Source of the DNA: Bacteroidales bacterium
Lineage (GTDB): Bacteria; Bacteroidota; Bacteroidia; Bacteroidales; Muribaculaceae
NCBI GenBank assembly: GCA_014800735.1
Contig: JAAVFP010000012.1
Location: forward strand, 2,998-40,433
Length of the DNA: 37,436 bases
Reading direction: 5' to 3'
Each line of letters opens with the position of its first letter. Positions within the stretch are counted from its first letter, which is position 1. The position numbers were made by a program, and so were the translations under genes. This document shows, in pieces, positions 28,085-29,865 of the stretch. The notes under the pieces are model-generated. The model was not told the DNA's origin. It did not search any database and saw only the letters and a list, made by a program, of their open reading frames with translations.

Positions 28085-29263
28085 TCAGTACGTCAGTCCG
28101 AATAGGAAAAGAGGCACGATATTGCCCGATCCATATTCGATATCGTCTTTTACAACATAGCCGTTCGGTGCATCTTTTATTTGCTTGCGACTTTTATTCT
28201 TACCACCTACTTCGAAAACGGCGTCACCGATTCTGAAATCTGTGATACGCGACGAAAGCACATCGTGAGTCACACGCATCTGATTGTAAAAGAAAGTTTC
28301 GCGTATGTTGCCGAGGTCGGCAGCCTCGCCGACGAGCACATTCATTAATGTAGGATTGTCGAGATAAACCTTCTCCACCTTACCCAAACCGCGCATGCCA
28401 CCTGTGTCGTCGCGAAGTTGACCAATCATGCCGGCCTTTTCAAGCCAAAGAAGATAATCCGACACATTATTTTTGCTCACCTTTATTTCTTCTGCAAGAT
28501 TTTCTGCACTTGGTTTGTAGGGTGCCGAACGAGATATTACACTGAGTAATTGCTTGAGTTTCCGCGCTGTGGAGGCCTTCATATCTGCATACATCGGTAT
28601 ATCTGTTTCAACGGTCAGGCTGATAATCTGTTGCATACGGCGCACAAAGTCGCCCTCTATGGCAAAGGGGTAGTAACCATCGGCAAGATAGCGCCGGAAA
28701 TAAGGTAAGGGGTGCAACAGCGTGTCAGGCATCGACCATTCACCGCTAAGAATTTGAGCAAAGCTCAATTCAGGGGCGTCTATACCCTCGAATAATTTCA
28801 GATATTCTCTGAACGACAAGCCCTGCATGTGGTACATAACAGCCCGCCGACTCAAATCAGCTTCACCCTTATTTATATCAAGCACTGACGAACCGGTGAA
28901 GGCAATCTTAAGTGACGGATGCCCATCATAGATCTGCTTTAGTTCCCGCGACCAACCTTCGTAGCGATGCGCTTCGTCAATGCACAACCACTCGCCACCT
29001 TCCTTAACGAATTCATCCGCAAGTTCAACAAGAGAGTGACTGGCAAACCAAGTATGGTCCGCAGCAACATAGAGCATCTCCTTATGCGAAGGTTGCGAGA
29101 GCATATATTGTAGCATCATAGTAGATTTTCCCACACCACGCGGGCCAGTGAGACCAACCATACGGTTGCTCCAATTTATTCTGTCAAACATATAACGGCG
29201 AAAGCCCAGCGGAGTAACTCGGAGCCGTTCTTCCATAAATGCTATCAGCGAAGTATCAATCAT
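28085..29263 (-). CDS. AAA_14 family ATPase (COG1373-type) with winged-helix and PD-(D/E)xK-like C-terminal region
   Basis: A 392-residue cytoplasmic protein. Seen: Walker A GPRGVGKST (40-48), Walker B WLCIDEAHRYEGW (92-104), a sensor-like FTGSS (122-126), then FREYLKLFEG, all typical of AAA_14. Residues about 238-285 (LLSVISRSAPYKPSAENLAEEIKVSKNNVSDYLLWLEKAGMI) look like a winged helix. The C-terminal DUF4143-like part has D342...E351-V-G-G-K355, resembling the PD-(D/E)xK nuclease core. Related proteins are common in Bacteroidales and mostly uncharacterised. It is a single gene preceded by a -7 element and three phased palindromes, divergent from blaI. Codon use is more AT-rich than in the housekeeping genes. 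Confidence 0.85.
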   Translation of the reverse strand: MIDTSLIAFMEERLRVTPLGFRRYMFDRINWSNRMVGLTGPRGVGKSTMMLQYMLSQPSHKEMLYVAADHTWFASHSLVELADEFVKEGGEWLCIDEAHRYEGWSRELKQIYDGHPSLKIAFTGSSVLDINKGEADLSRRAVMYHMQGLSFREYLKLFEGIDAPELSFAQILSGEWSMPDTLLHPLPYFRRYLADGYYPFAIEGDFVRRMQQIISLTVETDIPMYADMKASTARKLKQLLSVISRSAPYKPSAENLAEEIKVSKNNVSDYLLWLEKAGMIGQLRDDTGGMRGLGKVEKVYLDNPTLMNVLVGEAADLGNIRETFFYNQMRVTHDVLSSRITDFRIGDAVFEVGGKNKSRKQIKDAPNGYVVKDDIEYGSGNIVPLFLFGLTY

Positions 29264-29278
29264 AATTCATATTTTTCA

Positions 29279-29286
29279 CAAAGTTA
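29279..29286 (-). promoter_or_regulatory. -7 element of the AAA ATPase promoter
   Basis: TAACTTTG on the minus strand (29286-29279), 15 bases before the start codon. The -33 position falls on palindrome unit 1 and has no TTTG, which fits a promoter controlled by a bound factor. Confidence 0.62.
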
Positions 29287-29294
29287 ATAAAAAA

Positions 29295-29375
29295 TCCCTC
29301 ATTGAGGGAGGATTTTCGGCAATTTCCTCCCTCAATGAGGGAACTTTTCAGTCATTTTCCTCCCTCAATGAGGGA
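29295..29375. repeat. three 15-bp palindromes at an exact 33-bp period upstream of the AAA ATPase gene
   Basis: Unit 1 TCCCTCATTGAGGGA at 29295-29309; units 2 and 3 TCCCTCAATGAGGGA at 29328-29342 and 29361-29375. Each has perfect 7-bp arms around one central base; unit 1 is the reverse complement of the others. Starts are 33 bp apart both times. The 18-bp spacers are partly alike (11 of 18 positions, both ending TTTCC). Relative to the expected ATPase start site, unit 1 covers the -33 region. Confidence 0.92.
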
Positions 29376-29433: not shown

Positions 29434-29464
29434 GTTGCAACTACAAAAATAGTTATTACCTTTG
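29434..29464 (+). promoter_or_regulatory. promoter of blaI-blaR-like operon
   Basis: TACCTTTG at 29457-29464 with a partial -33 GTTG at 29434-29437 and a 19-bp spacer. The -7 element lies exactly between two operator copies. Confidence 0.75.
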
Positions 29465-29489
29465 CGTTAGCAACTACAAAAATAGTTAT
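29437..29489 (+). promoter_or_regulatory. two identical BlaI-type operators around the -7 element
   Basis: The dyad AACTACAAAAATAGTT occurs at 29439-29454 and 29472-29487; the exact direct repeat is 20 bp (29437-29456 and 29470-29489), with a start-to-start distance of 33 bp. The 13-bp gap between them holds the -7 element TACCTTTG. The second copy reaches the first two bases of the blaI start codon. This is typical of BlaI/MecI autorepression. Confidence 0.85.
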
Positions 29490-29865
29490 GAGAAAAGCTT
29501 CCAAAGACCAACTGACTGCCAAAGAGGAGGAACTGATGCAACTCCTGTGGGAACACGGCCCAATACAGATAAGCCGCCTCGTGGAATTCTACCCCGACCC
29601 GAAGCCGCATTTCAATACCGTTTCGACCGTTGTCCGACGCCTGGAGGGCAAGGGCTACGTTGACCACAACGAAGTTGCCGGGGCCTTCCACTACTACGCC
29701 ACCGTGCCGAAGGAACATTTCAGAAACCGCAGCTTCGGTGCGTTCATCAAGAACTATTTCGGCGGAAGCTATTTCGGCGCGGTATCGGCATTGGTTGAAG
29801 AGGAAAAAATTAGTGCCGACGAACTCAAGGAACTGCTCAAGCTGATTGAGCAAAAAGGCAAATAG
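29488..29865 (+). CDS. blaI: BlaI/MecI/CopY family transcriptional repressor
   Basis: A 125-residue winged-helix repressor. Seen: LTAKEEELMQLLWEHGPIQISRLVEFYPDPKPHFNTVSTVVRRLEGKGYVDHNEVAGAFHYYATV, the complete BlaI DNA-binding domain, then a C-terminal dimerisation helix pair with EEEKISADELKELLKLIEQ. Relatives bind dyads as dimers and are cleaved by the partner membrane protease. Two such dyads overlap its own promoter, so it is almost surely autorepressed. Its stop and the ATG of the M56 gene are one base apart. The symbol is by family; its target may not be a beta-lactamase. Confidence 0.93.
   Translation: MRKASKDQLTAKEEELMQLLWEHGPIQISRLVEFYPDPKPHFNTVSTVVRRLEGKGYVDHNEVAGAFHYYATVPKEHFRNRSFGAFIKNYFGGSYFGAVSALVEEEKISADELKELLKLIEQKGK

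Follow-up and report, generated by a model that had tools for sequence, protein, structure and literature searches.

Type IV toxin-antitoxin systems of the AbiE kind have autoregulated operators, in which a winged helix-turn-helix (wHTH) protein acts on its own promoter through inverted repeats. In plasmid iterons and in centromere arrays of the ParB/parS type, evenly spaced repeats adjoin the gene for their own binding protein. The proteins closest to the one considered here are the AAA_14-DUF4143 ATPases, which we take to be the family designated COG1373, and to which PADLOC's PDC-S01 candidates for phage defence belong. Two papers from 2026 deal with PDC-S01. One reports that no other individual locus is as frequent in rumen genomes (PMC13356809); the other ranks it fourth among the defences of all prokaryotes, describes it as an ATPase to which a PD-(D/E)-X-K member is fused, and notes that most candidates of this kind still await experimental validation (PMC12988326). 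The ATPase described here, P0001, is a remote member of this same family, and its gene has an upstream array. No upstream array, operator or autoregulation was found described for DUF4143, COG1373 or PDC-S01 ATPases in the accessible text of the literature searched, which lay mostly outside subscription journals and preprints.

The window, by which we mean the whole stretch of 37,436 nucleotides that was analysed, carries the array in the intergenic region between the AAA_14 ATPase gene and a divergent blaI/mecI-type gene. Its relevant features, in window coordinates, are these:

28085-29263, minus strand: AAA_14 ATPase gene with a DUF4143 match, encoding P0001 (392 aa); also matches PADLOC PDC-S01 models
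28187-28240, minus strand: putative nuclease-like C-terminal motif, D342...E351-V-G-G-K, PD-(D/E)xK-like by inspection
28409-28531, minus strand: predicted winged HTH segment, residues ~245-285 (sub-threshold HTH_5/HTH_24, weak Csa3)
28454-28477, minus strand: presumed recognition helix, residues 263-270 (SKNNVSDY), which covaries with the word of the array
28799-29167, minus strand: AAA_14 P-loop ATPase domain, residues 33-155 (PF13173, E 5.2e-27)
29279-29286, minus strand: -7 box TAACTTTG of the ATPase gene, assigned by sequence, TAnnTTTG type
29295-29309, no strand: palindrome unit 1 (promoter-proximal), TCCCTCA-T-TGAGGGA, exact match, placed over the -33 region of the ATPase promoter
29310-29327, no strand: 18-bp spacer 1
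29328-29342, no strand: palindrome unit 2, TCCCTCA-A-TGAGGGA, exact match
29343-29360, no strand: 18-bp spacer 2
29361-29375, no strand: palindrome unit 3, TCCCTCA-A-TGAGGGA, exact match
29488-29865, plus strand: blaI/mecI-type repressor gene, followed by an M56 peptidase gene

The three TCCCTCA-N-TGAGGGA palindromes reported in the earlier note are present with zero mismatches, starting at 29295, 29328 and 29361 with a pitch of 33 and 33 bp, and the 18-bp spacers between them are, as it had stated, conserved in part. Its description of unit 1 as flipped is true relative to units 2 and 3, but the difference lies solely in the central base (T against A on the plus strand), a base that varies among relatives too. 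The -7 box TAACTTTG is read here, on our own assumption, as a Bacteroidales-type promoter element of consensus TAnnTTTG. Unit 1 ends 8 bp upstream of this box and would thus span the -33 region, as had been proposed, so that operator and promoter overlap, as judged from the letters, at the ATPase's own gene. These are the only exact copies in the window, and throughout the source genome (2,597,325 bases, 86% complete) the 15-mer has three exact sites, all at the ATPase promoter, rather than the dispersed copies of a REP or MITE sequence.

The setting can be compared with the systems described above. No AbiEi/AbiEii pair adjoins the window array, whose neighbours are the ATPase and blaI. The likeness to AbiE would be that of a wHTH protein, here predicted, controlling its own promoter through inverted repeats; the presumed DNA-binding part lies, however, inside a single-gene ATPase. 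Iterons and parS arrays likewise consist of even repeats adjoining the gene of a binding protein (here a presumed one), but a scan of eight neighbourhood proteins turned up no gene for replication or partition, and the present family can occur as many differently worded copies within one genome.

Does the array belong to the divergent blaI/mecI-type gene and not to the ATPase? It does lie in an intergenic region shared by both, yet we give this reading almost no weight. None of 13 blaI orthologs in the genus (~1.5 kb compared) has the ATPase array upstream or the ATPase beside it; in 12 of the 13 the similarity begins at blaI's own two operators, near window position 29435, and homologous ATPases retain the array beside other neighbours. 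Since the neighbours of blaI differ between genomes, no precise empty site can be defined. The likely operators of the blaI/mecI-type gene are two identical 20-mers, GCAACTACAAAAATAGTTAT, at 29437-29456 and 29470-29489, and similar pairs were seen by eye upstream of 12 of the 13 orthologs. These two sites share the 33-bp pitch of the ATPase array in this window, but they have a different word and form no part of it.

P0001 scores 94.8 bits against AAA_14 (PF13173), above the curated cut-off of 27, and 27.0 bits (E 4.2e-6) against DUF4143 (PF13635), just below the curated cut-off of 28.1; all 43 close homologs match DUF4143 at E<=0.1. Its matches to HTH_5 (residues 256-280, E 0.017) and HTH_24 (residues 255-280, E 0.03) fall below the Pfam cut-offs, and that to Csa3 (residues 230-288, E 0.0044) is weak. 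In the alignment of the 43 homologs, residues D342, G353 and G354 of the putative nuclease motif are invariant and E351 is nearly so. NCBIfam and PHROGs gave no family for the ATPase, and its sequence matches in the PDB are P-loop matches to RecA only. P0001 hits six PDC-S01 models remotely and over part of the model length (best E 5.7e-25), a filing that is loose because PADLOC's own thresholds were not used. All six array-bearing plasmid homologs tested match PDC-S01 models at E 1e-104 or better, so the array is present on genes that PADLOC would clearly name.

The exact TCCCTCA palindrome occurs in 19 of 297 genomes of the family, compared with 1 for a reversed-pattern control. In nine of the 19 it stands directly 5' of an AAA_14 gene, these nine being the window and eight homologs of 58-77% identity; the palindrome is thus tied to AAA_14 genes, as the earlier note had it, and not placed at random. 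Two further loci carry gene remains and are for that reason regarded as decayed ATPase loci: at L113 the array is followed by the first codons of such an ATPase gene and then a stop, and at L112 an internal piece of an AAA_14 gene remains with the array. L019 and L031 have TCCCTCA arrays and no explained gene. A single site each is present in L018, L024, L028, L030 and L032; as judged by eye, two of these five sites fall within coding sequence.

Several of these loci have further repeats. L017 has a three-unit array 5' of its ATPase gene and one extra perfect palindrome at 1501-1515, just past the 3' end. At L113 (1780-1880, 2635-2740) a repeated non-coding block flanks the decayed ATPase array, and there are tandem-like repeats besides. 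At L111 (1490-1740, 2295-3745) a two-unit TCCCTCA array stands in front of an operon made up of an AbiEii gene (PF08843) and an upstream gene with no Pfam match, and a piece of about 250 bases, with the array and the start of the first gene, is repeated some 2 kb away.

This array 5' of an AbiEii-type operon, together with the arrays of L019 and L031 that lack an explained gene, could be taken to mean that a host regulator serving a regulon binds such arrays in place of the ATPase. We consider this very improbable. The array of L111 may be followed, tentatively, by a decayed ATPase start; the word is confined in the source genome to the one site; and the word varies among ATPases in step with the helix of the ATPase itself, as discussed below. 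AbiE-related loci, which are common among defence genes, are moreover as a class without such arrays: with L111 excluded, none of 42 (30 from a search with the AbiEii family and 12, mostly weak relatives, from one with the L111 upstream protein) has an array at 31-34 bp by the self-match test. This count sets the present arrays further apart from AbiE, and it speaks against a general feature of toxin-antitoxin operons, an idea that L111 had raised.

The array is not peculiar to the TCCCTCA word. A protein scan of 84,980 species genomes gave 50 loci, from which 47 usable genes were obtained (46 loci and the window). A paired-palindrome score of at least 20 was found upstream of 35 of these 47, compared with 0.85% of dinucleotide shuffles, so that close homologs do carry upstream arrays, and all 35 scoring arrays have a pitch of 32 or 33 bp where 28-38 was allowed. 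Among other genes of the same loci 7 of 237 reached a score of 20, and three of the four that reached 21 are AAA_14 genes themselves. When 395 genomes of the class were searched with a profile, 62 had relatives at E 1e-60 (three cut-off matches, in G454, G521 and G612, and the two of the source genome being left out), and 79 of 89 clade loci passed the filters. With lags of 24-43 bp allowed, 84 of 122 clade genes score at least 20, and 76 of these 84 do so at exactly 32 bp (38 genes) or 33 bp (38 genes).

A fixed test was then defined as a 14-base self-match of at least 12, or a palindrome-pair score of at least 21, at 32/33 bp. By this test an array lies upstream of 114 of 203 AAA_14 genes, as against 1 among 165 control genes drawn from those loci (Fisher 4e-37, the genes not being independent of one another). 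By set the tally is 35/47, 40/79, 2/8 in the source genome, 7/18, 18/24 in genome G168, 5/14 in G307 and 7/13 in G176, and the same test at shifted lags of 26/27, 29/30, 36/37, 38/39 and 42/43 bp gives 0-3 per set. The family matches taken were the best by E-value among those listed, namely the best 24 of 45 in G168, 14 of 29 in G307 and 14 of 62 in G176; from the 45 of G303, L088 and L106 were taken. Left out of the tally were L008 (the window gene itself), L013 and L014 (weak family hits, the latter of which appears to us to resemble DnaA), five duplicates, and loci in which no ORF was found or the upstream DNA was too short, such as L091, L094, L098, L100, L102 and L157. Four of 169 control genes were removed to give the 165, three sharing an array with a divergent ATPase and one being an ATPase. 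With start codons chosen automatically, the fixed test finds no array at 89 of the 203 AAA_14 genes, including six of the other eight in the source genome; some genes that lack the 32/33-bp lattice show repeats of another pitch or just one palindrome. The idea of an array belonging to the ATPase therefore survived the attempt to refute it and generalises, but the earlier note had missed that the design is a general one, with a word for each gene or clade.

The same geometry is seen well outside the Bacteroidota. Another 17 homologs were picked among protein matches on plasmids and faecal phage contigs. All exceed the AAA_14 and DUF4143 cut-offs, and 14 have the array: those of Glaesserella, Vibrio, Acinetobacter, Fusobacterium animalis, Agathobacter, Vescimonas and Collinsella, two of Segatella, and five from contigs labelled phage, a label marked unverified in the records. 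The three without it are from Ruminococcus, F. vincentii and a B. fragilis plasmid. The 17 are not fully independent, because the second round of searching used the array-bearing Agathobacter protein as query. With the Pseudomonadota, Fusobacteriota, Bacillota and Actinomycetota that this set adds, the array now spans five phyla. The plasmid copy of the Segatella copri type strain DSM 18205 (L348) has a three-unit array at 33 bp.

Family matches to AAA_14 were found in all 21 genomes searched (the source and 20 relatives), four of which have 62, 45, 45 and 29. Two of the expanded sets are in one genus, in G168 (45 matches in 4.5 Mb; for example L118-L141) and G176 (62 in 4.1 Mb; for example L156-L169); the other 11 searched genomes of the genus, the source included, have 1-11 each.

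Such numbers, 45 and 62 in two genomes of one genus, would also fit a mobile element, in which the palindromes were ends or targets of REP/RAYT or MITE type and the ATPase the mobilising gene. Some homolog pairs do share a stretch bounded roughly by the array and the stop codon, with differing flanks, arrays occur without an intact gene (L019, L111-L113), and L017 has its additional palindrome 3' of the gene. When the edges of 10 homolog pairs were examined, five (L033/L036, L046/L049, L047/L050, L048/L050 and L151/L152) were found to share a segment with one edge inside or close to the array region and the other at the stop codon or some ten bases from it at most; L046/L049 and L047/L050 have additional blocks in common in the vicinity. 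In the other five pairs, however, the shared DNA extends further on one side or on both, and no transposon ends, whether terminal inverted repeats or target duplications, were seen by eye at the edges of the 10. In addition, L112 and L113 are decayed loci with gene remains, the word has not spread in the source genome, and copies within one genome differ in word. Mobilisation of this kind is thus a distinctly poor explanation of the arrays, while array and gene seem, from these comparisons, to travel together. A published table of genes for which horizontal sharing between gut genera has been inferred includes COG1373 (PMC10782964). A 3.2-kb duplication in a Bacteroides ilei record (L051, 2294-5503 and 6846-10055; 99.9% identical) comprises the whole ATPase gene and its array.

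The words vary by clade, TCCCTCA, TGCACT and TGCTCA being among them, and the AAA_14 copies of a single genome mostly bear words of their own, either palindromes or direct repeats such as ACATTTTTCGTGGGAAAAG. For each of four words taken as exact matches, genome-wide search gave 3, 3, 3 and 2 sites, all at the promoter of the owner, and these four words are thus private. Nineteen words of G168 are about as dissimilar as shuffled words, the largest match being 11/16 in both, and orthologous copies in two genomes (L122/L159, L133/L168) have a near-identical word. A different palindrome, GAATCGCGATTC or similar, is repeated just 3' of the orthologous ATPase genes L133 and L168.

Placement relative to the promoter is also regular. 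Seventy-five genes were examined and 71 had a recognisable -7 box; when the downstream unit of each best pair is taken and its centre measured from this box, the offset is -16 in 23 genes, +15 in 11, -14 in eight, -48 in eight and another value in 21. A protein bound at such offsets would in many cases overlie the core promoter. A transcribed hairpin was considered and rejected, the unit lying upstream of the -7 box in 56 of the 71 genes and several words being direct repeats.

What, then, reads the word? The earlier note had suggested that the winged-helix region of the ATPase might do so, and residues of the presumed recognition helix do covary with the word. In the 43 aligned homologs, whose word classes were set by eye with TGCAC as the default class, SKN(N/S) goes with TCCCTC in 9/9, SRN(N/V) with TGCAC in 27/27 and SRNS with TGCTC in 5/5, and the remaining two bear other words. 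Thus K264 is present in all nine TCCCTC genes and S266 in all five TGCTC genes, while the 27 TGCAC genes have N266 (25) or V266 (2). Between the TGCAC and TGCTC classes, columns 266 and 253, both within the HTH stretch, hold all the information. A partial-distance scan over many words, made with 75 of 76 genes (L038 was dropped, its best pair lying between units), places windows 247-257 and 264-269 among the highest, and of all 347 columns residue 264 scores highest by itself (partial r 0.505); Walker A (45-50) and residues 300-309, outside the HTH, are also high.

GC words are associated with asparagine at 265 and GT words with other residues there (37 + 15 against 5 + 2; Fisher 4e-8, uncorrected for kinship, with 16 of the 75 genes not classifiable and L042 misclassed by register). 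On the tree few word-residue contrasts are independent. The TCCCTC word, with K264, forms one clade (support 100/99), and TGCTC requires two changes, one of them forced by well-supported branches. For N265 there are just three tree-independent pairs, of which on average 2.1 go the expected way and none the opposite way, which is not significant. The covariation supports the suggestion that the recognition helix reads the word, but the tree-independent evidence for it is thin.

We propose, with a probability of roughly 0.7, that the array is a private phased operator to which the AAA_14 ATPase would bind cooperatively, repressing its own gene. Units repeated every 32/33 bp, or nearly three turns of DNA, lie on one face, and it is this, combined with offsets that cover the promoter, that leads us to this reading of the array. 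One dimer of the AAA_14 protein would sit on each palindrome and read it through the recognition helix of its winged HTH, and neighbouring dimers, three helical turns apart, would touch on the one DNA face. Together they would occupy the promoter and keep the gene repressed until the protein is titrated away or its state is changed. Some arrays may depart from one dimer per unit, since their words are direct repeats and not palindromes. Array and gene would travel and decay as a pair, and word and helix would diverge together, allowing many copies in one genome without cross-talk. The array, its near-invariant pitch, the preferred promoter phasing, the AAA_14 link and the privacy of the four words are observed directly; we infer the dimers, their cooperativity, repression, the release signal and any role in defence.

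A different function for the array follows if the ATPase is a defence nuclease. The array might then be a licensing or self-recognition site at which the AAA+ protein is kept inactive, to be freed or assembled from there upon disturbance by foreign DNA or a phage product, with autorepression as a side effect. The PDC-S01 matches of P0001 and of its array-bearing homologs, and the published description of PDC-S01, point in this direction, as do words that are private and repeated, by eye up to four units in some genes, which is perhaps beyond the needs of repression. PADLOC candidates are, however, predictions, as the published caution over their validation acknowledges, and the units prefer fixed promoter positions, as plain regulation predicts. 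We regard a licensing site as rather unlikely, and prefer the autorepressor operator.

More tentatively, and at odds that we would put clearly below even, a large part of the AAA_14/PDC-S01 ATPases of bacteria may be one-gene systems, each with a private array, phased at the fixed pitch of 32/33 bp, whose word co-evolves with the helix. The array might then both silence the gene and serve as a platform for the assembly or release of an ATPase-nuclease, and diversification of the words might insulate dozens of copies per genome. A conserved, private and phased operator would in any case give a handle, from sequence alone, on the control of PDC-S01 genes and on the target of the protein. Pairs of protein and word that share one geometry would lend themselves to the derivation of a recognition code and to the building of insulated regulators, and what wakes such ATPase genes would become directly testable by reporter.
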